A program made the position numbers and the translations under genes. From Halobacterium sp. KA-4 (GTDB lineage: Archaea > Halobacteriota > Halobacteria > Halobacteriales > Halobacteriaceae), in contig NZ_JAJJZG010000015.1 in assembly GCF_021028995.1 (NCBI RefSeq), positions 1 through 64,000 on the forward strand: DNA of 64,000 bases, in the 5' to 3' direction. Position 1 is the stretch's first letter, and the number at the start of each line of letters is the position of its first letter. The notes beneath the pieces were generated by a model, which was not told the DNA's origin, searched no databases, and saw nothing but the letters and a program-made list of their open reading frames with translations. Below are positions 1,975 to 15,129 of this stretch, piece after piece.

Positions 1975-3672
1975 CTATCCGATTCCCGTCTCCTTCTTCA
2001 AGAGTGTAAGTGTATTATCCGCTGTCACAATCGGCGAATGCTCGTACTCGTCAGTTAACTCGACCTGCACGAGCAAATCGACGGCTCTCCAGATCGAGTA
2101 CAGCAGGCAGGCGAACGCGAAGTAGAAGAATCGCAGCCCGAAATTCTTCGACGTCGTCGCTGCCATGAATCGCTTGATCGACCTATAGCCGCTCTCGATT
2201 TCCCACCGATACCCGTACTCAGTGAGAAATCCGCTCACGGTATTGGTCATAAACACCGAGTACTGCCGGTGGTCGTCGTGCTCAGCGTTCTCTTTGCGCC
2301 GGTAGATCAGCGTCGTTGAGTGCCACTCGTTGTTCCCGAGGTGGAGCTTCCGGTCGGTCTCGTACCGATCTTGGCCGTGTTGGAGCAACCGCTTTGCCTG
2401 AGCTTTCTCGCTGGTCTGCATCCGTTTCGGGACGACATACGACAGCCCGCGCTGGCTGATCATCTCCAGGACGTGCTGGCTATCGAACTCCCGGTCCATC
2501 AGGACGTTATCGACGTGGACCAGTTCCTCGGTAGAGTCCAGCAAGTCTTCGACGATCTCTTTGCGTGACTCACCCCTCCGAACTGGACGAGCATCCAGCA
2601 CAATTGGAACCGCATTGCCGACCAACTGGACAGTGGCCCACTGGTAGGCGTATTCGTCGGTGTTCTCCTTCGTGCCGATGATCTCATCCTCGTGGCCCGT
2701 TCGATCACCGGTGAAGGGGTCAGCTTCGGTAATGTCGATGGCGACGATCCCAGCTCGGAAGAACTGCTCTGTCTCCGCAACTTCGTTCAGGAGCCGATTG
2801 ATGGCCTGCCGGTACATCTCTCGGACCTGTGGAATCGAGAGGTCGCGGATGTGCTCGCGATGGGCGTGCCCCAGCGGTGTCCGGTCACGCGTCGATTCAT
2901 AGACGAAACTGCGAGCCCCTTCGTTCGCAGCCAGTCTCTCGCGAAGTCCGAGATACGTCTGTAAATCCCAGAAGGCGTTCTGGTGGATTTCACAGCCCTC
3001 ACCACGATCCAACGAGAACGCTGGGAAGACGACGCGACTGACGTGGTCCGTAATCGGTGCCGCTTCGTCGAGGACAGCTTGATCGTCTGGGTGTGGTTCG
3101 TCCTCTTTGTGGTGAGATGGAAGGTGCCGTTCTGGTTCGCGCGGAACAGCGACACCCGCGTTCTGGGCTTTGATGAGGATGGTCCGCGCAGCTGTCTCGA
3201 CTGTACTGCGAAGCTCGGCAGTGAATCGGTTGTGCCAGCTGCGCCACAGCGTCGATTGGTCCGGTACTACCTCCAGGTCTAATTGTTCACAGAGTTCTGG
3301 ACGACAATTGAGGTACTCAACGAGTGCCGTCTCGTTATCCCATCCGTAGAGTTCCTTCAGAACGAACACCCGAAAAAGCGCATCCATCTTGTAGCGTCTT
3401 GTATTCGCGTAGCGGTCGTGGGCCTCGAACCGGAAGTAGGCTAACGGGAGCGAGCAGACGAACTGCTCAACTGAGTCGTGAGTGTCGTGTTTGAACCAGA
3501 TTCCCGAGACGATGCGAACGTCCGATTCCAACCCGGCAAGCGAGGTTTGGTCGTACAGTGGTGTTGAATCGTATACTGGCCAGTCAGCGTGCGACCGTCG
3601 TGCGATTCGTCGGAAGACAGCTCGGCGAGACTCACGAACCGTAGTCACTACGAGATACTGGCCACGACACAC
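1975..3672 (-). CDS. Large IS4-like DDE transposase
   Basis: A 565-residue DDE transposase that would catalyse cut-and-paste movement of its own element. The visible core motifs are VAIDITEADPF (first Asp), LMDREFDSQHV (second Asp) and YRWEIESGYRSIKRF (Glu, the Y-(2)-R-(3)-E-(6)-K signature of IS4-like enzymes). These are followed by a hydrophobic RFFYFAFACLLYSIWRAVDLL segment. Four other proteins in this window (at 11491, 24970, 43494 and 57672) share the same plan. An N-terminal helix pair and VVPDQSTLWRSW precede the catalytic part. The reading frame is intact. GTG at 3672 is the first start; a later one is possible. Terminal repeats were not resolved. Confidence 0.85.
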   Translation of the reverse strand: MCRGQYLVVTTVRESRRAVFRRIARRSHADWPVYDSTPLYDQTSLAGLESDVRIVSGIWFKHDTHDSVEQFVCSLPLAYFRFEAHDRYANTRRYKMDALFRVFVLKELYGWDNETALVEYLNCRPELCEQLDLEVVPDQSTLWRSWHNRFTAELRSTVETAARTILIKAQNAGVAVPREPERHLPSHHKEDEPHPDDQAVLDEAAPITDHVSRVVFPAFSLDRGEGCEIHQNAFWDLQTYLGLRERLAANEGARSFVYESTRDRTPLGHAHREHIRDLSIPQVREMYRQAINRLLNEVAETEQFFRAGIVAIDITEADPFTGDRTGHEDEIIGTKENTDEYAYQWATVQLVGNAVPIVLDARPVRRGESRKEIVEDLLDSTEELVHVDNVLMDREFDSQHVLEMISQRGLSYVVPKRMQTSEKAQAKRLLQHGQDRYETDRKLHLGNNEWHSTTLIYRRKENAEHDDHRQYSVFMTNTVSGFLTEYGYRWEIESGYRSIKRFMAATTSKNFGLRFFYFAFACLLYSIWRAVDLLVQVELTDEYEHSPIVTADNTLTLLKKETGIG

Positions 3673-3828: not shown

Positions 3829-3894
3829 ACTTCCACATCTGGTAGTTACAACCGCACTTCTAACTTGGTAGCTTTTAACTTCCAAAGCCGTATC
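3829..3894 (+). promoter_or_regulatory. Triple-operator promoter P1 (pirin operon)
   Basis: Three related boxes occur: ACTTCCACATCTGGTAGT (3829), ACTTCTAACTTGGTAGC (3856) and ACTTCCAAAGCCGTATC (3878). Their starts are 27 and 22 bp apart. Box 2 runs into CTTTTAAC (about 3872-3879), a plausible haloarchaeal TATA box 29-32 nt before the ATG at 3908, so the mRNA should be nearly leaderless. The same three-box layout precedes the genes at 6844, 7995 and 10532. Boxes that cover the TATA box and the expected transcription start suggest repression. Confidence 0.8.
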
Positions 3895-3907: not shown

Positions 3908-4660
3908 ATGCAAGTAAGCAATGATACAGCGCTCTACAAGGCCCCTCGCACAGATCTCACGCAGAATCAGGGCAAGTTCAGAATGCATACCAACTACCCT
4001 GGGCGACTCCTCCCAGACCATGACGACCACGGCTACGGACCGCTCGCTCGCGTTGACGAAGCAATCTTGGATCCGGACACGTTCGTTGGTATGCATCCAC
4101 ACCAAAACGACGAAATTGTCTCGTACGTCCCGACCGGCGTGATGCGTCACCGAGACCGGGCAGGCAACGAGTTAGTCATGGACTCTGAACACCTGATGGT
4201 GATGAACGCCGGGACCAGGTTCTGGCACGAGGAGCAGACACTCGAAGATGACCCACAGCTGCGGCTCCTCCAGATCTTCGTCCGACCGCACACGGTCGAT
4301 CTCGAACCGAATATCCAGCACGGTCCCGTTCCGGATCCCGTCGCCAACGAGTGGCGACATCTCTTCGGTCCGGAAGAGTCCGACGCACCGTTCTACGTGC
4401 GCAACGACGTCAACTTCTATGACGTCCGCCTCGACGAGGGAATGAGTGTCGAACTGCCCTCGATAACGGGATGGGATACGTACTTCTACGTGTTCGAAGG
4501 CGCAGTCGAGGCCAACGAGACGACCTTCGACCGGACAGAACAGGGATTACTCGTCGGTGCAGAGGAACTGACAGTCACCGCCCAAGAAGAGACGTTGCTC
4601 GTTGCCTTCCTCATCAACCCCGACGCACCGCTTACGTACCAGGGAACCATCGGCCGGTAA
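3908..4660 (+). CDS. Pirin family protein
   Basis: A bicupin of the pirin family; members bind iron and some are quercetin 2,3-dioxygenases. The N-terminal cupin keeps the metal-site pattern H63-x-H65 (MHPHQNDEIVSY) and H107-x-E109 (AGTRFWHEEQ), and a second cupin follows to about residue 245. The length of 250 matches the family. It opens an operon with the dioxygenase-like gene (48 nt gap) and the esterase (1 nt overlap). Promoter P1 places it under the shared triple operator. YhaK/YhhW-type pirins are induced by oxidants or electrophiles in some bacteria, in keeping with the neighbours. The protein has no cysteine. The exact substrate is unknown; a quinone or flavonoid-like aromatic is an inference. 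Confidence 0.85.
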   Translation: MQVSNDTALYKAPRTDLTQNQGKFRMHTNYPGRLLPDHDDHGYGPLARVDEAILDPDTFVGMHPHQNDEIVSYVPTGVMRHRDRAGNELVMDSEHLMVMNAGTRFWHEEQTLEDDPQLRLLQIFVRPHTVDLEPNIQHGPVPDPVANEWRHLFGPEESDAPFYVRNDVNFYDVRLDEGMSVELPSITGWDTYFYVFEGAVEANETTFDRTEQGLLVGAEELTVTAQEETLLVAFLINPDAPLTYQGTIGR

Positions 4661-4708
4661 ACAGCTACTGCCGGTTCCCCCGCTTAAAATAAACACAAAA
4701 CACATCTA

Positions 4709-5653
4709 ATGGTAACAGACACGCCGGGTATCCACCACATCACGGGCATCGTTCGGGATGGCCAGCGGAATCTCGACTTCTATACGGGAGTCCTCGGGCT
4801 ACGCCTCGTCAAACAGACAGTGAACTTCAACGAGATATTCACGCGCCACCTCTTCTATGGCGACGAAACCGGCACGCCCGGCACGAGCTTGACGTTCTTC
4901 CCGTATCCCGCAGAGGAAGACGGACGCATTGGACAGCCACAGATCACCACTGCCGCGCTTGTCATTCCTCCCGGGTCGATCGAGTACTGGAGTGATCGAC
5001 TCACCGCTCACAACATCGAATTTGACGGCCCGTTCGAACGATTCGACGAAACTGTCCTCCGGTTTACCGACCCAGACGGAACGCAACTTGAACTCGTCAC
5101 CGGCGACTCGTCGGTCAAACCGTGGCCGGACGGACCGATTCCGACCCAGCACGCGATTCGGGGTATCCACAGTGTGACGATCCGTTCTGTGAGCATCTTC
5201 GTCACCGCAAGTGTGCTCGACACGCTGGGCTTCGAGCTCGTAGACCAGGAGGGTGACCGGGTTCGGTATCAGGCACCGGGGGACCGAGCAGCCATCGTTG
5301 ACCTCCTCGACAGAGACGGTGAGTTCGGCCGCGAGGGTGTCGGCTCGATCCATCACGTGGCGGTACGTATTTCGGACGAAGAGGAACTCTATGAATGGCA
5401 TAACCTGTTCCGAGACCGTGGCTACGATGTCTCACGAGTGCATGATAGGCACTTCTTTCACTCGCTGTACCTCCGCGAGCCCGGCGGTATCCTGTTCGAA
5501 CTCACCACCGAGGGGCCGGGACTCACGTTCGACGTCGATACCGACACGCTCGGGCAGTCGCTGTACCTCCCCCCCTCGCTCGAAGAGGACCGCGAGATGA
5601 TCGAAGGACAGCTTCAACCGCTCGAACTCCCACCAGCCCTCAAACCGAACTAA
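4709..5653 (+). CDS. Ring-cleaving dioxygenase-like VOC protein (MhqA/MhqO type)
   Basis: A two-domain vicinal-oxygen-chelate protein of 314 residues, the same size as the Bacillus MhqA/MhqO/MhqE hydroquinone dioxygenases. The first VOC module begins PGIHHITGIVRDGQRNLDFY (metal His near residue 10) and ends DPDGTQLELVTG (Glu). The second begins VGSIHHVAVRISD near residue 217 and ends EPGGILFELTTEGPG. These His and Glu residues are the usual Fe(II)/Mn(II) ligands. It should act in the cytoplasm to open hydroquinone or catechol rings or process quinone-thiol adducts. It is the second gene of the P1 operon; its stop overlaps the esterase start. It has no cysteine. The substrate is inferred from the family and partners. 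Confidence 0.83.
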   Translation: MVTDTPGIHHITGIVRDGQRNLDFYTGVLGLRLVKQTVNFNEIFTRHLFYGDETGTPGTSLTFFPYPAEEDGRIGQPQITTAALVIPPGSIEYWSDRLTAHNIEFDGPFERFDETVLRFTDPDGTQLELVTGDSSVKPWPDGPIPTQHAIRGIHSVTIRSVSIFVTASVLDTLGFELVDQEGDRVRYQAPGDRAAIVDLLDRDGEFGREGVGSIHHVAVRISDEEELYEWHNLFRDRGYDVSRVHDRHFFHSLYLREPGGILFELTTEGPGLTFDVDTDTLGQSLYLPPSLEEDREMIEGQLQPLELPPALKPN

Positions 5654-6315
5654 TGACTCGATCATCCCACTCCTCCGAGTCGGGTGATGACCTGCATCGA
5701 GGACAACCGATCGAATCAGCCGGTGCCCCCCCGCAAGCTGCCGACGCAGCCGTGATCATGGTTCACGGTCGTGGCGCGACCGCTCAGAGTTTCTTATCGC
5801 TTATAGACGAGTTTCTGCATCACGGTGTGATGTATCTCGCTCCACAGGCAGCTCAGAGCACGTGGTATCCCCGGTCGGGCTATGAACCAATAGAAGCGAA
5901 TGAACCGTGGTTTTCGTCCGCACTCGCCCGTGTGAAAACGGCACTTGAAACGGCGACTACCGCCGGCATCCCCTCCGAGCGTGTGGTCCTCCTCGGATTC
6001 TCTCAAGGCGCAGGTCTTGTAAGCGAATACGCTGCCCGAAACCCACGTCGCTACGGTGGACTCATTGCACTCTCTGGAAGTCTACTCGGACCGGAAACGA
6101 GCCATACGTACGACGGGACGATTGATGGCACACCGGTCTTCGTTGGGTGTGGCAGGAACGATCCGTATGTTCCTGCTGAGCGTATTCACGAAACTGCATC
6201 CGTGTTTGAACAACTTGATGGAGACGTTACTGTTGAACTCTACGAAGAGTTGGGCCACGCAATTACTGACGATGAAATCCAGGTGGTCAACACGTTTGTC
6301 GAACAATTTGACTGA
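5653..6315 (+). CDS. Phospholipase/carboxylesterase family hydrolase (MhqD type)
   Basis: An alpha/beta hydrolase of the phospholipase/carboxylesterase family, 220 residues. The triad is visible: Ser117 in GFSQGAG, Asp170 in GRNDPYVP and His202 in ELGHAITDDE. The oxyanion-hole region is MVHGRGA. The start ATG shares one base with the upstream stop (TAATG), so translation is probably coupled to the dioxygenase-like gene. In Bacillus the dioxygenase/esterase pair mhqE-mhqD sits in the hydroquinone regulon, and this arrangement looks equivalent. The first 30 residues are polar and probably disordered. A single Cys (166) lies beside the Asp of the triad. It may hydrolyse lactones or esters from ring cleavage; this is inference. 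Confidence 0.83.
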   Translation: MTRSSHSSESGDDLHRGQPIESAGAPPQAADAAVIMVHGRGATAQSFLSLIDEFLHHGVMYLAPQAAQSTWYPRSGYEPIEANEPWFSSALARVKTALETATTAGIPSERVVLLGFSQGAGLVSEYAARNPRRYGGLIALSGSLLGPETSHTYDGTIDGTPVFVGCGRNDPYVPAERIHETASVFEQLDGDVTVELYEELGHAITDDEIQVVNTFVEQFD

Positions 6316-6320
6316 GGAGC

Positions 6321-6692
6321 TTACTCAGGACAATCAAGCTGTTCTGCTCCATGGGTAGTCATCCAGTTTTCGAGTTCTCGGAAGGTCGGTTCGAGTTCTT
6401 CTAATGGTTCTGTCGCCTCGTATTCTACCCGTGGCGGAATCTCGTCGTACTGCGTGCGATCAAGAAATCCGACTTCGACAAGTTCGTCGAGCCGTCGAGA
6501 CAGCGTATTCGGGGAGATATCAAGGGCCTCTTGCAGTTCGCCGAATCGAACCGGCTGGTTGTCTCCAAGGAGGAGTTCGCGGAGAATCGCCAGCGTGTGT
6601 GCCTTTCCGAGAAGTGAAAAGAGTTCACTCCCATCGACCGCTCCCCGCTGTTTTGATTGCAATTCCGTTTTAGATTCACTCATGCAACTCAC
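6321..6692 (-). CDS. HxlR/DUF24-type winged-helix regulator
   Basis: A 123-residue DNA-binding protein of the HxlR (DUF24) family. The HTH spans about residues 24-80 (LLGKAHTLAILREL, then GELQEALDISPNTLSRRLDEL), followed by a wing (PRVEYEATEPLEEL). It starts with GTG at 6692, giving M-S-C: Cys3, with a second Cys at 121. Bacillus YodB and CatR, of the same family, sense quinones through an N-terminal Cys (Cys6 or Cys7) that can pair with a C-terminal one. Starting at the ATG at 6683 would remove Cys3. A perfect ACTAC-N7-GTAGT covers the start, so it probably represses itself and the four triple-operator promoters. It converges on the esterase gene with a 5-nt gap. Confidence 0.85.
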   Translation of the reverse strand: MSCMSESKTELQSKQRGAVDGSELFSLLGKAHTLAILRELLLGDNQPVRFGELQEALDISPNTLSRRLDELVEVGFLDRTQYDEIPPRVEYEATEPLEELEPTFRELENWMTTHGAEQLDCPE

Positions 6693-6707
6693 TACGAATC
6701 CAGTAGT
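6691..6707 (-). promoter_or_regulatory. Perfect operator over the hxlR-type start
   Basis: ACTAC-GAATCCA-GTAGT is a perfect 5+7+5 inverted repeat that overlaps the GTG start at 6690-6692. The boxes of the four neighbouring promoters have the same form with one arm as ACTTC. Its position downstream of any TATA element fits autorepression. Confidence 0.75.
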
Positions 6708-6769
6708 AATGTATGTTGTGGAAATCGCATCATCGTGCCAATAACTGAGCTGTGTGAGTGTGCATCAAC

Positions 6770-6835
6770 ACTTCCATACCCGGTAGTTACTATCTCACTT
6801 CTAACTTGGTAGTTTTTAACTTCTAATCCCGTAGT
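6770..6835 (+). promoter_or_regulatory. Triple-operator promoter P2 (SDR gene)
   Basis: The boxes are ACTTCCATACCCGGTAGT (6770), ACTTCTAACTTGGTAGT (6797) and ACTTCTAATCCCGTAGT (6819), at the same 27/22-bp steps as P1. A TTTTTAAC TATA-like element (6813-6820) lies about 27 nt before the ATG at 6844, predicting a leaderless mRNA. The divergent regulator gene starts 78 bp to the left. Confidence 0.8.
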
Positions 6836-6843
6836 AAACCTGT

Positions 6844-7611
6844 ATGACTGGACAACTCCTCGATGGAAAAGTTGCAGTAATAACAGGTGCCGCAAGCGGG
6901 AATGGTCGTGCGATTGCGGATGCTTACGCTGAAGAAGGGGCAGATATCGTAGTTGCGGACATTCAAGAGACTCCACGAGAAGGTGGAGAACCAACCCACC
7001 AACTCGTTGAAGACGAGTATGGTGTTGATACAAAGTTCGTGGAATGCGACGTTACAGACACCGATAGCCTTGTTGGGGCGGTGGACGCGGCAGATGAGTT
7101 CGGTGGGATTGATATCATGGTGAACAATGCCGGGATCTTCCGTCAGAAGGATTTCGTGGAGGTGACGGAAGATGAATACGAACAAATGATGGACATAAAC
7201 GTCAAAGGTGTGTTCTTCGGAGCGCAAGCCGCAGCAAAGAAAATGCTCGATAAGGGTGACGGGGGCGCCATCATCAACATGTCTAGCGTCGCCGGCATCA
7301 TTGGTCAGGCGACGTTCTCGGTCTATCACACCACGAAGGGGGCGGTACGACTACTTACGTACTCCCTTGCAGACGAACTCGGGCCGGAGGGTATTCGAGT
7401 GAACGCAATTCATCCAGGCGTTATTGAAACTGAGATGACCAAAGACGATGTCCCGATCGCAACGCAGGAAAGCGCGGAGAACACACCGATGGAACGGCTC
7501 GGTCAGCCCGAGGACGTCGCGGGTGCAGCACTCTATCTTGCCTCAGACGACCTCGCTGGCTATGTGAACGGCGAGTCGCTCATTGTTGACGGAGGCCAAT
7601 CGAACACGTAA
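6844..7611 (+). CDS. Short-chain dehydrogenase/reductase
   Basis: A classical NAD(P)-dependent SDR oxidoreductase of 255 residues. The cofactor loop is TGAASGNGRAIA (T14-G21), NNAG is at 94-97, and the catalytic set is Ser147/148, Tyr161 and Lys165 in VYHTTKGAV. After the first beta-alpha unit, VVADIQ ends in Asp39, which usually indicates NAD rather than NADP. The C-terminus VNGESLIVDGGQSNT is typical. It is transcribed alone from P2, so it belongs to the same regulon as the pirin and EF-1A operons. Reduction of a reactive carbonyl or quinone is a reasonable guess; the family is too broad to name a substrate. It has one cysteine (Cys68). Confidence 0.88.
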   Translation: MTGQLLDGKVAVITGAASGNGRAIADAYAEEGADIVVADIQETPREGGEPTHQLVEDEYGVDTKFVECDVTDTDSLVGAVDAADEFGGIDIMVNNAGIFRQKDFVEVTEDEYEQMMDINVKGVFFGAQAAAKKMLDKGDGGAIINMSSVAGIIGQATFSVYHTTKGAVRLLTYSLADELGPEGIRVNAIHPGVIETEMTKDDVPIATQESAENTPMERLGQPEDVAGAALYLASDDLAGYVNGESLIVDGGQSNT

Positions 7612-7918
7612 AACGTCACTCTCGCAAAGAGCAAAATAGCGCTATTTCCTTTTTCCAGGCACTGTCTAGTTCAGCACCTCCTTGGCTGGTATTTGGTCAT
7701 TCAGCGCTTGATTCGTCCGATACCACATGATTGAGACACCTGTTGATAGGCGATCTCACTCAACCACTATCTGTTGACTCACGCGCTAGGGGCTTAGTAG
7801 CAGGATTTTCATAGGGTCAATCTCCTCTAGAAGAGCGTTTCATTATATAACTGAGTTCTCTCCGCAAGAGAACACAGCTGATAATACGGTATACATCCAA
7901 TGATACCCCCTCTCAGTC
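7612..7918. other. Spacer with an IS6-type remnant
   Basis: No complete gene is present. The left part holds a decayed transposase end (see 7658-7735); the rest, up to promoter P3, is AT-rich and featureless to the eye. Confidence 0.5.
7658..7735 (-). pseudogene. C-terminal remnant of an IS6-family transposase
   Basis: The terminal sequence GGCACTGTCTAGTT is shared with the IS6-type element at 18210. Read on the minus strand, the fragment ends YRTNQALNDQIPAKEVLN-stop. This is recognisably the same C-terminus as HQRPHQSLDGNTPAEEVLN-stop in that element, but diverged. No upstream part of the gene remains. It marks an old insertion between the SDR gene and the EF-1A operon. Confidence 0.65.
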
Positions 7919-7984
7919 ACTTCCACATCCGATAGTTACTACTACACTTCTAACTTGGTAGTTTTTAACTTCTAAAACCGTAGT
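7919..7984 (+). promoter_or_regulatory. Triple-operator promoter P3 (EF-1A operon)
   Basis: The boxes are ACTTCCACATCCGATAGT (7919), ACTTCTAACTTGGTAGT (7946) and ACTTCTAAAACCGTAGT (7968), again 27 and 22 bp apart. The TATA-like TTTTTAAC (7962-7969) lies about 29 nt before the GTG at 7995. This puts an elongation-factor gene under the same control as detoxification genes. Confidence 0.8.
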
Positions 7985-7994
7985 TAGCGATACA

Positions 7995-9266
7995 GTGAGT
8001 ACTGACAAACCCCACCAGAACCTGGCTATCATCGGCCACGTCGACCACGGCAAGAGCACACTCGTGGGGAGACTTCTCTATGAGACAGGGAGCGTCCCCG
8101 AGCACGTCATCGAACAACACCGCGAGGAAGCTGAGGAGAAAGGCAAGGGCGGCTTCGAGTTCGCCTACGTCATGGACAACCTTGCCGAAGAGCGTGAGCG
8201 AGGTGTCACGATAGACATCGCCCATCAGGAGTTCTCGACGGAGGCGTACGACTTTACCATCGTCGATACACCGGGACACCGAGACTTCGTCAAGAACATG
8301 ATCACGGGCGCGTCCCAGGCTGACCACGCTGTCCTCGTCGTCGCTGCTGACGATGGCGTCGCGCCCCAGACCCAGGAACACGTCTTCTTGGCCCGCACCT
8401 TGGGAATTGACGAGCTTATTGTCGCTGTCAACAAGATGGACCTCGTCGACTACGAGGAAGCGAAGTACAAGGAGGTCGTCGAGGAGGTCAAGCAACTCCT
8501 CAACCAGGTCCGATTCGACACCGACGATGCATCGTTCATTCCCGTTTCCGCATTCGAGGGTGACAACGTCGCCGACGCCTCCGAGAACACAGACTGGTAC
8601 GATGGCGAGACGCTGCTTGAGGCGCTCAACGATCTGCCCGAGCCACAGCCAGCGTCGGACGCGCCGCTTCGGCTCCCGATTCAGGACGTCTACACCATCT
8701 CCGGTATCGGTACTGTCGCTGTTGGACGTGTCGAGACCGGCGTCATGAACACCGGCGACAACGTCTCGTTCCAGCCTAGCGACGTGGGCGGCGAAGTGAA
8801 GACGATCGAGATGCACCACGAGGAAGTCCCCCAAGCCGAACCGGGCGACAACGTCGGGTTCAACGTCCGCGGCATCGGTAAGGACGACATTCGCCGCGGC
8901 GACATCGTCGGGCCTGCTGACGATCCGCCGAGCGTCGCTGAGACCTTCCAAGCCCAAATCGTCGTCATGCAACACCCCAGCGTGATCACCGCCGGCTACA
9001 CGCCGGTCCTCCACGCCCACACGGCGCAGGTCGCCGGCACCGTCGAATCCATCGACCAGAAGATCGATCCCTCGTCCGGTGAGGTCGCCGAGGAGAACCC
9101 CGACTTCATCCAGTCGGGCGATGCCGCTGTGGTCACGATCCGACCGCAGAAGCCCCTCAGCATCGAACCATCGAGTGAAATCCCCGAACTTGGAAGCTTC
9201 GCCGTCCGCGACATGGGTCAGACCATCGCGGCTGGCAAGGTTCTTGAAATCAACGAGAGAGACTAA
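7995..9266 (+). CDS. Cysteine-free archaeal elongation factor 1A
   Basis: A full-length (423 aa) aEF1A, the GTPase that delivers aminoacyl-tRNA to the ribosome. All GTPase motifs are present: GHVDHGKST (G1), RGVTID (G2), D91-T-P-G-H (G3), NKMD (G4) and SAF (G5). Domains 2 and 3 are complete. It has no cysteine. From memory, the usual haloarchaeal protein has Cys in DCPGH, in GDVCGP and in QVACTVES; here these are Thr92, Val305 and Gly348. An EF-1A gene normally lies with the rps10/rpl genes. This one starts with GTG, is read from stress promoter P3, and is followed 7 nt later by a flavoprotein. It should be functional: no key residue is missing. Alternatively, it could be the only EF-1A of the genome, which I consider unlikely. 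Confidence 0.93.
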
Positions 9267-9273
9267 CCCAACA

Positions 9274-9858
9274 ATGACAGACGTCATCATCGTCGGTGGT
9301 GGTCCCGCTGGCCTGAGCGCAGCACTGTTTACCGCAAAGAACGGCCTCAATACCGTCGTCTTCGATACCGATCAGACGTGGCTGCATAAAGCTCATCTGT
9401 TCAATTACCCGGGAATCGGGTCTATTGGCGGAACGAATTACATAAACACGCTCCGAGAACAGGTCGATGATTTCGAAGTTGACCGTCATCAAGACACTGC
9501 TGTTACAGCAGTTGAGTCCACCACAGATGGGTTTACCGTTAAAACAGACGAAGACGACCACGCTGCAGACTACGTGGTCCTTGCAACAGGAGCTAATCGT
9601 GATCTTGCCGATGATCTCGGCTGTGCGTTCACTGACGAGAACGTCGTCGATGTCGATGTGACGATGGAGACGTCGGTCGAAGACGCCTATGCGACGGGCG
9701 CGATGGTACGCGCTGAGGAATGGCAAGCTGTCATCTCTGCAGGCGACGGTGCCGCAGCCGCGCTCAACATTCTCACGAAAGAGAAAGGCGAGCACTTCCA
9801 CGATTTCGACACGCCAGCCGATGCCGAAGCTCTGTTCGGATCACTAATCGATAACTAA
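9274..9858 (+). CDS. Small FAD-dependent (thioredoxin reductase-like) oxidoreductase
   Basis: The ATG at 9274 gives 194 residues that open with a Rossmann FAD motif, VIIVGGGPAGLSAALFTAKN. YVVLATGA (about residues 105-112) and a C-terminal ATGAMVRAEEWQAVISAGDGAAAALN follow, the latter as in the FAD-binding end of thioredoxin reductases. The NADPH-binding domain and the CxxC redox pair are both absent, so it cannot be a standard thioredoxin reductase. Such short forms occur in haloarchaea; their role is unknown. It is the second gene of the P3 operon. A longer frame runs back to 9079 but would overlap EF-1A by nearly 190 bp and is rejected. It has one Cys. Confidence 0.8.
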   Translation: MTDVIIVGGGPAGLSAALFTAKNGLNTVVFDTDQTWLHKAHLFNYPGIGSIGGTNYINTLREQVDDFEVDRHQDTAVTAVESTTDGFTVKTDEDDHAADYVVLATGANRDLADDLGCAFTDENVVDVDVTMETSVEDAYATGAMVRAEEWQAVISAGDGAAAALNILTKEKGEHFHDFDTPADAEALFGSLIDN

Positions 9859-9886
9859 CTGTTCTTAACAGGGAATACGATATTGT

Positions 9887-10279
9887 ATGTCGAGAAACCA
9901 ACTGCCTGATCAAGAAGACTGGCCATGGGACTTCGAAAAGCGACGTGACAATGTCGGCGTCTGGCTACTGACTGGTTGGGATGGTTACGATCAGGAAACG
10001 CTCGAAAGTGTATCAGAACACTACGACAAGCGAACGAACCAATCAGATATCATTGGTACAGTTGCAGTGTTCAGTGAAGATACAAATCTGCCGAAAGAAA
10101 CCCAACAGTACATAGCAAATGAGTGGGGGGACAACGCTGGAGGCGTTAAACGTGTTGCGCTCGTTTCAGAGGGACTGAAAGCGATGGCTGTGTCCGCAAA
10201 TGTTGAGGTCGAAAATGACGTCGAAGTCGAATGGTTCAAAGATATCGACGAAGCAGTAGAGTGGGCAGCAGGCGAATAA
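9887..10279 (+). CDS. SpoIIAA-like/STAS-type hypothetical protein
   Basis: A 130-residue acidic protein without membrane segments or cysteines. The alternating pattern IIGTVAVFSEDT, KRVALVSEGLKAMAVSANV and VEWFKDIDEAVEWAAGE resembles the SpoIIAA-like (STAS-related) fold, where a short stress-type domain ends with a -DEAxxWL helix. That reading is by eye only. It follows the flavoprotein by 28 nt and is probably the last gene of the P3 operon. A TATT/AAAT-rich stretch follows, with no clear terminator hairpin. Function unknown. Confidence 0.7.
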   Translation: MSRNQLPDQEDWPWDFEKRRDNVGVWLLTGWDGYDQETLESVSEHYDKRTNQSDIIGTVAVFSEDTNLPKETQQYIANEWGDNAGGVKRVALVSEGLKAMAVSANVEVENDVEVEWFKDIDEAVEWAAGE

Positions 10280-10452
10280 AACTACTTCTGCATTATTTCA
10301 ATAAATATCATAAGTAAAAATTGTTTCCAAGAGACGCGGAGTCTACTACATCAGTTGACATCGGGGTCGAACCACGAGTTCAGCGGGCATTTCGTTTGTA
10401 ACTTACCTTCCGAACCTTTGGGGGTAACTCTAAAGTGTGAGTCAATTTTCTC

Positions 10453-10518
10453 ACTTCCACATCCGGTAGTTACAACTACACTCCTAACTTGGTAGCTTTT
10501 GGCTTCCAAACTCATAGC
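10453..10518 (+). promoter_or_regulatory. Triple-operator promoter P4 (DoxX gene)
   Basis: The boxes are ACTTCCACATCCGGTAGT (10453), ACTCCTAACTTGGTAGC (10480) and GCTTCCAAACTCATAGC (10502), with the same 27/22 spacing. Box 3 is the most degenerate of the set, and the TATA-like element is weaker (GCTTTTGGC). The expected start, by analogy with P1, is about 30 nt beyond box 3, which falls on the ATG at 10532. Confidence 0.75.
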
Positions 10519-10531
10519 TGGGTATGTAGTG

Positions 10532-10591
10532 ATGGAAGACAACCTGATCACAGACATGCAGACGGACTATCTGACGGTGATTTATCAATGA
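10532..10591 (+). CDS. 19-codon leader peptide before the DoxX gene
   Basis: The frame ATG...TGA encodes MEDNLITDMQTDYLTVIYQ and ends in ATGA, sharing 4 nt with the DoxX start at 10588. The ATG lies 30 nt from the start of operator box 3, the same as for the pirin gene in P1. A leaderless transcript from P4 would therefore begin at this small frame, not at doxX. Translational coupling is the simplest role. No homologue is known to me. Confidence 0.5.
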   Translation: MEDNLITDMQTDYLTVIYQ

Positions 10592-10953
10592 GCCTCTTCG
10601 GCACGGCATTCCTCGGTGTACAATCGGTGTTGGCTCTCGCTATGATTGGTGCAGGAGGAGTGAAGTTAGGAGGTATCGAGTCACAGATTGAGGAGTTCCA
10701 GCGGTACGGCTATCCGCAGTGGTTCCGGCTGGCGACGGGCAGTATTGAACTCCTTGCGGGAGTCGTACTCGTGGCGGGCCTCTTCGTGACACCCGTCTTA
10801 GCCCTCGGTGGAAGCCTACTCGTCGTCGCAACGATGGTCGGAGCAGTCGTCACGCACGTTCGGATGGGAGATCCTGCTACGGACATCGCCCCGTCAATGA
10901 TTCTCCTCATATTAGCACTGGGAGTGAGCTGGTACCATGTGAGTCCCCTCTAA
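10588..10953 (+). CDS. DoxX-like integral membrane protein
   Basis: A 121-residue protein with four hydrophobic stretches (about 5-25, 48-68, 71-90 and 101-118). The FxKLxG-like GAGGVKLGGIESQIEEFQRYGYP after the first is characteristic of DoxX/DoxD-like proteins. Members of this family (CatD, MhqP) are part of quinone and electrophile regulons in Bacillus. The start at 10588 overlaps the leader peptide stop. A frame running back to 10489 would begin inside operator box 2 and is rejected. It has no cysteine. Likely role: membrane partner in quinone or thiol redox homeostasis, by analogy only. Confidence 0.8.
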   Translation: MSLFGTAFLGVQSVLALAMIGAGGVKLGGIESQIEEFQRYGYPQWFRLATGSIELLAGVVLVAGLFVTPVLALGGSLLVVATMVGAVVTHVRMGDPATDIAPSMILLILALGVSWYHVSPL

Positions 10954-11490: not shown

Positions 11491-13254
11491 CTAAATGAGT
11501 GTGATCAACTCCTTGTCCAGCCAATCAAGGAACCGACTGAGTGTGATTCTGGGCTTTTTCCGGGTTTCAATGACCCCAATGCGCTCTTGTGTGAGGAAAT
11601 CGACTAACAGCCACATATTGTAGACCACACACCCAAAAGCGAAATGGAACCACCGTACTCCAAACTCCTTCGAGGTAGTCCACGCCGCTGCGTTCTTGAT
11701 CGACGAGTACGAGTTCTCGATCGCTCCGCGGTCACTGTACTGTTCAATCTGCTTTTTCGCCCAGCGCCGATCGAGTGCGACCTCGTCACTCACATCGAGA
11801 CTGGTGATAAACGGCTGTGGCGATCCCTCTTCATGGACATCATCATCTTCCGCTGGGGGTAACACGGCAACGGTCGTATGTACTGTGTGGTTTGAGACGC
11901 CACCCTTCACTGCACCGTGCATGACGAAATCCTCCTCGACATACAGCGGGGTGTCGTTCGGTTCGTGATACCCCTGCTTCACTTGGTCAAACCGGTCGCA
12001 CATCGGTCCAATCCGATGCTGATCTTTCTGAGCAGGGATCACGTAGTCCAACCCCTTGTCAGTAAGCGTCTGAATGACGTCTACAGCGTGGAATTCACGA
12101 TCGGCGTACACCATCCTGATGTCGACGTAGTCTTCGGCGATCGAAAGGAGCCGTCGTGCAACATCCCCGATATAGTAGGAATTACCCTTGCCGGGATACG
12201 CGTCTGTTGCGGCGTAGTCCGTACTTCCAAGCGGACACACCCCCACGACGTAGTGAGTGTTCTCGCCGACGATCACGACCGTCGCGAACTTGTGACACCA
12301 GGTGTATCCCTTTCCCTCTGGCGCGCCCTGGACCCATTTCATCTCGTCGCGATCGCCATAGTAGGCAACATACGTGATGTCCAGCGCGACCTTTGTCCGA
12401 GTCCCAAACCGTGAGCCGTTATCGTGTTCGAGCTCCCTGATTCGGGGCTTCGCGCGTGTGTAGGTCTTTCGGAGAGCGAAATTCAGCACGGTCGCAATAT
12501 CATCGACGGACATGTGTTTGAGAGCCTCCAACAGGGTCTCACCAGATGGACCATCCTCGTAGAACGGGTCATCAACGGCGGGATCTGGATTTTTCATGTC
12601 ACCCAGCTTCTGTCCCGAACCGTGTGCCGCCTGCTGCTTGATCGACGCGATTGCTTCTAAGACGAGTAATTCATCGTCGTCGTAGATCGCGTCATCTGAT
12701 CGGGAGAGTGAGATTGAAGGGATGGCTACTGATTTCAGCTCATTAAGCACCTCTTGTCCCTTCTTTCGCAACAAGCGTTGGACGGTTCGATTTGATAGCG
12801 ACTGTTTGTCTTCGCCGTCCGATGTTTTGAGAAGATCATTCCCGATTGGTGCGCCTCGTTCAGCAGCAAGTGTTCGAATCTCTTTCACTCCCCGTTCCAC
12901 GGGTGACTGAAGTTCTTCGAATCGTCCTCCATCTAATCGCGTTGGCTTGAACGTGCTTTCTGAGGGAAGATCGTCGAGGTCAAAACCCATAGCAGTGGCC
13001 AACTCTGGATTTGCTTCAAGTTGGTCCGGGATCGTCGTCAAGGAGACATCTTCGGCTTTCGCCCACACGTATGCGAGAAACATTCGTGGAAACGGTGTGG
13101 CAGTGTGCCAATCTGGATATCTGTCTCGTCGTTCAAATCGGTCGGTGTCAAACTCATCAACGAAATCTATCCATTCTGTCTCTTCGTCGATGATCTCATC
13201 TGCTTGCTTTCCAAGGCCTGTGACCGGGGAGGAGGGGGTATCTGGGAGATTCAT
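11491..13254 (-). CDS. Large IS4-like DDE transposase
   Basis: A 587-residue DDE transposase of the same general plan as the one at 1975, but in a different subgroup. Catalytic stretches are VALDITYVAYYGDRDE, MVYADREFHAVDVI and YSDRGAIENSYSSIKNAA. The terminal hydrophobic motif is RWFHFAFGCVVYNMWLLVDFL. The N-terminal half contains a predicted helical DNA-binding region (TVQRLLRKKGQEVLNEL). The frame is complete and ends in LDWLDKELITLI. It lies between a non-coding gap and a divergent wHTH gene. Ends of the element were not resolved. Confidence 0.83.
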   Translation of the reverse strand: MNLPDTPSSPVTGLGKQADEIIDEETEWIDFVDEFDTDRFERRDRYPDWHTATPFPRMFLAYVWAKAEDVSLTTIPDQLEANPELATAMGFDLDDLPSESTFKPTRLDGGRFEELQSPVERGVKEIRTLAAERGAPIGNDLLKTSDGEDKQSLSNRTVQRLLRKKGQEVLNELKSVAIPSISLSRSDDAIYDDDELLVLEAIASIKQQAAHGSGQKLGDMKNPDPAVDDPFYEDGPSGETLLEALKHMSVDDIATVLNFALRKTYTRAKPRIRELEHDNGSRFGTRTKVALDITYVAYYGDRDEMKWVQGAPEGKGYTWCHKFATVVIVGENTHYVVGVCPLGSTDYAATDAYPGKGNSYYIGDVARRLLSIAEDYVDIRMVYADREFHAVDVIQTLTDKGLDYVIPAQKDQHRIGPMCDRFDQVKQGYHEPNDTPLYVEEDFVMHGAVKGGVSNHTVHTTVAVLPPAEDDDVHEEGSPQPFITSLDVSDEVALDRRWAKKQIEQYSDRGAIENSYSSIKNAAAWTTSKEFGVRWFHFAFGCVVYNMWLLVDFLTQERIGVIETRKKPRITLSRFLDWLDKELITLI

Positions 13255-14200: not shown

Positions 14201-15129
14201 GGGCTCTGTAGTTTCGCTAGACGCAACGGCTACGACTGCGTTATTGCCGTAGAAAGCGAAGAGACAGATCGGTGTGACATCCGAAATCCGTCTCTTCACG
14301 CGTGTTACGGTGGCTAAGGCTAAATCAGTTGTCGCTAATCCGGACGAACCCGCCTCCCCCTTCGGGGTCGGCGGGTTCGCAGAATGGGCGATGCTCACCG
14401 TGCATGCACTCCGCATCGAGCTGGGCAAATCCTACCGCGTCGCGGTAGATTTGCTCTCAGAAATGCCCGGCGTCCTTGAAGAGATCGGACTCACCAGACT
14501 CCCACACTACACGGTGCTTCGCACGTGGTTTGAGCGGATTTCGACCAAGACGTGGCGTGCGTTTCTCGGCGTGTCGGCCGAGAAACACACCGGGCACGCT
14601 GCTATCGATTCGACTGGCTTTGACCGTGATCAGCCCAGCCGCCACTACGCCAACCGCACGAACTACCGCGTTCGAGCGCTGAAAGTCACCGCACTCGTGG
14701 ATGTCGAGACGCTGTACATCACCGACATCCACTCGACGACCTCGAAGAAACACGATGCGAAGATCGGCCCGCAGGTCGCTCGGCGCAACGCCGGTGACCT
14801 GCGGAGCCTTGCTGCTGATCGCGGCTACGACGCCAAAGCCTTTCGCGATGAACTCCGCGAAAACGGCATCAGACCGCTGATTAAACACCGAATCATGAAT
14901 CCACTCGATCACGCCCACAACGCCCGCATGGACGGTGATCGGTACCACCAGCGTTCAATGTCCGAAACCGTCTTCTCGTCGATCAAGCGCACGCTCGGCT
15001 CCGCCGTGCGTGCGCGTAGCTGGTGGCTAGAATTCCGCGAAATGCTGCTGAAAGCCACCGTCTACAACCTCCGTCGGAGCGTCCGATATCCGTGAAATCG
15101 ACCGCCGTGTACCGAAACTACAGAGCCCC
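14201..15129 (+). mobile_element. IS5-type insertion sequence, 929 bp
   Basis: The element is bounded by perfect 17-bp inverted repeats, GGGGCTCTGTAGTTTCG (14201-14217) and its complement (15113-15129). It contains one intact transposase. No target duplication is visible at the borders, so one flank may have been rearranged after insertion. Confidence 0.88.
14274..15095 (+). CDS. IS5-family transposase
   Basis: A 273-residue DDE transposase of the IS5 type common in haloarchaea. The acidic triad lies in AAIDSTGFDRD, LAADRGYDAKAF and SETVFSSIKRTLGSAVRAR (Y-R-E pattern replaced by HQRSMSETVF). It starts with GTG at 14274. Unlike the copy at 17138, it is intact, so the element may still move. 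It is related to the transposase at 19673 (both have SxHYAxRTNY), but clearly not the same IS. Confidence 0.88.
   Translation: MTSEIRLFTRVTVAKAKSVVANPDEPASPFGVGGFAEWAMLTVHALRIELGKSYRVAVDLLSEMPGVLEEIGLTRLPHYTVLRTWFERISTKTWRAFLGVSAEKHTGHAAIDSTGFDRDQPSRHYANRTNYRVRALKVTALVDVETLYITDIHSTTSKKHDAKIGPQVARRNAGDLRSLAADRGYDAKAFRDELRENGIRPLIKHRIMNPLDHAHNARMDGDRYHQRSMSETVFSSIKRTLGSAVRARSWWLEFREMLLKATVYNLRRSVRYP

Follow-up and report, generated by a model that had tools for sequence, protein, structure and literature searches.

The question raised by this locus is whether an HxlR-type regulator, encoded on the minus strand at 6324-6683 (120 amino acids; stop codon 6321-6323) of the window (the whole 64,000-nucleotide stretch of Halobacterium sp. 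KA-4 DNA that was analysed), is a thiol-based switch for the genes around it, and through which residue it would act. A preliminary description had suggested that it is a redox switch for the whole cluster, sensing quinones through an N-terminal Cys3. The family assignment was confirmed, as the Pfam HxlR profile (PF01638) is matched with 61.2 bits against a cut-off of 20.8 over profile positions 2-88 of 91, and the PDB relatives include YodB, YtcD, HxlR, and YdzF. The reading favoured here, with a probability of about 0.6, is that of an autoregulated electrophile- or quinone-response regulator of the HxlR family, which lacks the canonical cysteine and possibly senses through its C-terminal Cys118.

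The surrounding genes are all located on the plus strand. Upstream in the numbering lie a pirin-family protein with a quercetinase-type C-terminal cupin (3908-4660; Pfam, with YhhW/quercetin dioxygenase as PDB relatives), an MhqO-like ring-cleaving dioxygenase (4709-5653; PDB 3oaj, MhqO, 2.8e-73), and an MhqD-like phospholipase/carboxylesterase (5653-6315; Pfam Abhydrolase_2, PDB 4h0c). Among solved structures, the dioxygenase is most similar to B. subtilis MhqO, with a 2,6-dichloro-hydroquinone dioxygenase likewise near; its gene overlaps the esterase gene, which reproduces the mhqED arrangement. On the other side, a short-chain dehydrogenase/reductase (SDR, 6844-7611) is followed by a second EF-1A (7995-9266), a 194-residue FAD/NAD(P)-binding protein related to thioredoxin reductase (9274-9858; Pfam search), a 130-residue protein that matches no Pfam or NCBIfam family and is likely part of the EF-1A operon (9887-10279), and a DoxX-family membrane protein (10588-10953; Pfam DoxX_2), which we take to be of the CatD/MhqP type of Bacillus quinone regulons. 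The predicted targets thus include a dioxygenase, a carboxylesterase, and DoxX, as in quinone-detoxification regulons. From its gene content, a role of the cluster in quinone or electrophile detoxification is plausible, with the pirin, SDR, and DoxX proteins completing the response; SDR and DoxX proteins are not quinone-specific.

Several further features of the cluster were recorded. The 9274-9858 protein is a shortened thioredoxin reductase-like protein with one cysteine and is linked to a cysteine-free EF-1A in several genomes. A 19-codon ORF (10532-10591) starts where the promoter boxes predict and its stop codon overlaps the DoxX start (ATGA), so that translational coupling or a leader peptide is possible. 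The eight other cluster proteins contain 3 cysteines in 1907 residues (0.16%), compared with 0.94% in the other long ORFs of the window. A cluster-wide avoidance of cysteine was nevertheless dropped as an explanation, since the majority of homologues elsewhere lack cysteine as well (18/30 for the pirin and 17/30 for the dioxygenase), and only the cysteine difference of EF-1A is therefore specific. Transposase-like ORFs, recognised by inspection only, flank the cluster (1975-3672, 11491-13254, and 14274-15095), which, given its scattered occurrence (22 of 392 genomes), suggests that it spread horizontally.

Cysteine residues of the regulator

The regulator of the window contains a single cysteine, Cys118 when numbered from ATG 6683 and Cys121 when numbered from GTG 6692. 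Orthologues were sought in 392 genomes of the order (E < 1e-30) and found in 22 of them; five extra loci came from, e.g., Natrinema zhouii, Natrialba aegyptia, and Halopenitus malekzadehii, several of them duplicating genomes of the main set. Among the 21 distinct proteins surveyed, all 18 close orthologues have exactly one cysteine, situated near the C-terminus, at an overall identity of 60-70%. Counted from the conserved Trp of the last helix, this residue stands at +11 in 15 proteins and at +5 in three (the L033 type), which are different positions; Cys101 and Cys108 of YodB stand at +5 and +12 from the corresponding Trp. The three more distant relatives in the survey (L053, L055, and L056) have no cysteine at all, and L053 is a linked HxlR protein that adjoins a cysteine-free EF-1A and yet lacks any thiol. 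Therefore, sensing through a thiol cannot be a property of the whole wider group. The AlphaFold model of the regulator is weak (pLDDT 61, and below 50 in the tail beyond the last helix).

The N-terminal sensor position presents a different picture. In an alignment of YodB, whose sequence was confirmed against PDB 5hs7, with about 30 haloarchaeal HxlR paralogues, the canonical sensor cysteine precedes the F of FSLLGK by seven residues. The classical haloarchaeal paralogues keep it, including two encoded in the same genome (L142 and L143), whereas the clade of the window regulator lacks it; the window protein has Ala/Val at the position of YodB Cys6, and hence no helix 1 cysteine comparable to YodB Cys6, CatR Cys7, or HxlR Cys11. 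Of the two cysteines near the ends that the preliminary description had listed, the C-terminal one is thus present and conserved in the close orthologues, and Cys3 does not belong to the protein. The two-cysteine arrangement of the YodB subtype is present in its C-terminal half only, the N-terminal partner being absent. Since there is one cysteine, the YodB-type N-to-C disulfide that had been suggested for this protein is impossible. S-alkylation, a mixed disulfide, or a Cys118-Cys118' linkage are conceivable in a single-cysteine regulator, and sensing through the C-terminal cysteine is plausible as judged from the sequences.

The same cysteine inventory bears on a thiol-independent alternative, in which a quinone or another aromatic compound occupies a pocket of the regulator, the mode of sensing suggested for MhqR, and Cys118 is uninvolved. 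The loss of the canonical sensor cysteine and the cysteine-free relatives agree with it, as does the fact that MhqR controls a comparable dioxygenase-esterase operon by a thiol-independent mechanism, its C95A mutant responding normally (PMC6798810). However, ligand binding in a pocket would leave unexplained why the close orthologues, at their degree of divergence, have all kept a single C-terminal cysteine at the site of the YodB C-terminal pair, and the thiol-free EF-1A of the cluster suggests a thiol-reactive stress. We regard the pocket model as possible, at clearly less than even odds.

Promoter boxes, predicted regulon and start codon

The predicted autoregulatory operator, ACTACTGGATTCGTAGT on the minus strand, occupies 6691-6707 with a TATA-like sequence on one side and the start codon on the other, its core centre lying 16 bases before the ATG. 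It contains the perfect dyad ACTAC-N7-GTAGT that had been described near the regulator start, and the consensus among orthologues is ACTACGAAnTTCGTAGT. The perfect pattern occurs at two sites in the 3.34-Mb genome, compared with five for the reversed control pattern, and is thus not rare; the significance of the operator comes from its recurrence at the same place before orthologues and not from the single match. The second site, C22:229911, between hisA-like and hisB-like genes, was set aside as a chance match because it shows no flanking similarity. In most of the QLECS-type clade, loci of the L002/L031 type carry an additional perfect palindrome, GTATCCTCAACTGAGGATAC, on the upstream side of the operator, where a different regulator might bind.

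The perfect form is not shared by the four neighbouring promoters, contrary to what had been proposed: they carry ACTTC-N7-GTAGT and relatives, arranged as three boxes. Box A reads CTTCCA-N4-YRRTAG and box B CTYCTAACTTGGTAG, and the distances between box centres, about 26.5 (A-B) and about 21.5-22 (B-C), are constant in the four promoters. All of these are on the plus strand. Upstream of the pirin-dioxygenase-esterase operon (3830-3893), A lies at 3830-3845, B at 3857-3871, and a C-like box at 3879-3893. The SDR gene is preceded at 6771-6834 by A (6771-6786), B (6798-6812), and C (6820-6834), and the EF-1A operon at 7920-7983 by A (7920-7935), B (7947-7961), and C (7969-7983). Upstream of the 19-codon ORF and the DoxX gene (10454-10516), A is found at 10454-10469, B at 10481-10495, and a C-like box at 10503-10516. 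A TATA-like sequence is located between B and C, so that each of the four targets has A and B on the upstream side of TATA, and the promoter of the regulator itself has the C position only.

This layout also bears on the sign of control, which may be negative. Archaeal sites at TATA/BRE or between TATA and start usually block initiation, and here box B abuts TATA/BRE, while box C falls between TATA and start at the SDR and EF-1A genes. These positions speak against an activator resembling B. subtilis HxlR on hxlAB, for which A and B would recruit basal factors and only box C of the own gene would be repressive. Such an activator would fit the placement of A and B upstream of TATA and the presence of the downstream box alone at the own promoter, and the title of a reference in PMC6943732 describes B. 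subtilis HxlR as a positive regulator. Taken together, activation is regarded as possible, though less likely than not.

The distribution of the boxes indicates which protein reads them. In the 3.34-Mb genome, the 31-bp box-B/C core was found in no further copy beyond the cluster. Of the 392 genomes, 15 contain the core element CTAACTTGGTAGYTTT, and 14 of these have an orthologue, always adjoining (hypergeometric p 2.6e-19, relatedness ignored); the reversed control is found in none. The targets behind the same boxes vary by lineage, an F420-type reductase in most genomes and pirin/EF-1A in others, and the regulator is the sole constant neighbour, which is strong indirect support for the regulator as their reader. 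A different regulator acting through A and B could be suspected from their left half (CTTC vs CTAC in the own operator), from the divergent spacing of box A, and from one genome, G331, that has the element without the regulator; set against the constant adjacency elsewhere, this is improbable. In that genome (L146, G331:C1:1917500-1922500), a reductase gene has intact A/B boxes with no regulator adjoining, and we read it as an orphan target after regulator loss or replacement. The divergent neighbour in most genomes (L057:7897-8667; also L059, L061, L063, L068, and L069) is an F420_oxidored-type reductase that carries an HTH_10 DNA-binding domain at its C-terminus, an uncommon fusion of enzyme and regulator. 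Very probably, therefore, the predicted regulon comprises the regulator itself and the whole cluster. The cluster-wide switch of the preliminary description is retained in this respect, and redox sensing through Cys3 is not.

The fate of Cys3 depends on the start codon, as had been recognised: an in-frame GTG at 6692 would prepend V-S-C to the protein beginning at ATG 6683. The ATG follows the operator after 6-7 bases in all 21 loci with a clear operator (the window, with a gap of 7, and 20 others), and protein similarity among orthologues begins there. An equivalent in-frame start adding a cysteine was found in none of the 20 other loci; the L033 type, with a spacing of 6 instead of 7, has its upstream bases in a wholly different frame. 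Moreover, the distance from the beginning of the TATA-like sequence to ATG 6683 is 30 bases, comparable to -31 to -35 from the starts of the target genes. GTG 6692 sits within the operator, about 20 bases past the TATA-like sequence, hence near the point where the transcript is expected to begin or even before it, and a transcript beginning at the ATG fits the TATA position. On the conserved spacing, the onset of similarity, and the TATA position, the start is assigned to ATG 6683, which places Cys3 outside the protein. Even if translated, it would not be the equivalent of YodB Cys6, since it would stand about 24 residues before FSLLGK instead of 7, that is, about 17 positions away. Both observations that the preliminary description had named as speaking against Cys3, a start at 6683 and absence of the residue from orthologues (it is missing from all), were thus made. 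A GTG start with YodB-like sensing through Cys3 and a disulfide to the C-terminal cysteine has in its favour that the in-frame GTG exists, and it is dismissed on the conserved ATG, the TATA spacing, the alignment with YodB, and the orthologue cysteine inventory.

The cysteine-free EF-1A copy

The EF-1A of the cluster (TIGR00483, 666 bits) is 87% identical to the canonical copy on contig C11. The latter has Cys at 92, 305, and 348, and the cluster copy has Val at 305, Gly at 348, and no cysteine anywhere, thus lacking the cysteines of canonical haloarchaeal EF-1A. Cys305 is absent from all six regulator-linked copies and Cys348 from five of them, five being wholly cysteine-free, whereas both residues are present in 33/33 unlinked haloarchaeal copies, 32 of these full-length (Fisher p 3e-7, relatedness ignored). 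Second EF-1A copies in G287:C1, G391:C3, G308:C1, G370:C10, and G321:C1 keep Cys305 and Cys348. Cys92, the equivalent of EF-Tu Cys81, was rejected as a distinguishing residue because Thr occupies this position in some unlinked copies as well.

The linked copies differ at only 3-9 of the 276 columns that are invariant in the 32 full-length unlinked sequences, and in 5/6 of them the changed columns include both invariant cysteines. Their divergence is high at synonymous sites and low in amino acids (dN/dS about 0.06-0.1), indicating that they are under constraint. EF-1As of thermophiles also lack Cys305 and Cys348, which are therefore dispensable for EF-1A function. The EF-1A tree needs three changes to explain the cysteine loss, but monophyly is compatible with the data (p-AU 0.53); a claim of six independent losses was accordingly limited to one to three events, and the hypothesis set out below may go back to just one such event.

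In the cyanobacterium Synechocystis, translation stops when one EF-Tu cysteine is oxidised (Yutthanasirikul 2016, cited in PMC8141631), and the proteins that undergo S-thioallylation in Bacillus include EF-Tu (PMC6943732). These effects elsewhere lead to the hypothesis of a thiol-proof EF-1A here. We propose tentatively that an HxlR regulator without the canonical cysteine may induce the cysteine-free EF-1A under electrophile or thiol stress, so that it would replace the thiol-bearing copy and translation would continue. Such a copy could not be alkylated or oxidised at cysteine, a logic like that of zinc-free ribosomal-protein paralogues. It may represent a natural solution to EF-Tu-type cysteine oxidation, testable in a genetically tractable group.

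Proposed mechanism and related systems

In the favoured reading, the regulator would be an HxlR/DUF24 dimer of 120-residue subunits, with translation of a leaderless mRNA beginning at ATG 6683. Binding to the dyad at 6691-6707, which separates its TATA box from its start codon, would limit its own transcription, and binding to the A-B-C dyad arrays at the four divergent or neighbouring promoters would give it control of every gene from 3908 to 10953. The gene products would remove quinone-type electrophiles (pirin, MhqO-like dioxygenase, MhqD-like esterase, SDR, and DoxX) and supply the cysteine-free EF-1A. The likeliest trigger for release from DNA would be modification of Cys118, the sole thiol, which lies in the C-terminal tail adjoining the dimer-forming helix, whether by S-alkylation, a mixed disulfide, or a Cys118-Cys118' linkage.

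An archaeal HxlR-type regulator of the quinone or electrophile response was not found in the open literature searched. Within the haloarchaea, OxsR of Haloferax volcanii is likewise a single winged-helix regulator for which thiol action is proposed, but it belongs to the TrmB family, has no quinone cluster, and shows no sequence relation as far as tested. B. subtilis HxlR, the namesake of the family, is an activator responding to formaldehyde through a Cys11-Lys13 crosslink; it binds upstream of its target, like the boxes of the window, whereas the window regulator has no Cys11 equivalent. MhqR (mhqED/mhqNOP) similarly controls a dioxygenase and phospholipase/carboxylesterase pair, but is of the MarR type and not of the HxlR family, and uses no thiol. 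The nearest comparison is with YodB, QsrR, and CatR, the DUF24/HxlR quinone sensors of Bacillus and Staphylococcus, which share the fold family, a dyad operator overlapping the promoter, and ring-cleaving dioxygenases and quinone-detoxification genes as targets. In YodB, disulfides link Cys6 to Cys101' or Cys108'; QsrR undergoes S-alkylation, and MhqR needs no thiol for sensing (PMC6798810). The window regulator also has a cysteine near its C-terminus, as YodB has Cys101 and Cys108, and differs from these sensors in having a single cysteine and no N-terminal one, archaeal TATA promoters with three boxes, and EF-1A in its predicted regulon. With a sharply defined local regulon and the defining residue absent, it can separate the N-terminal cysteine from quinone sensing in the HxlR family.
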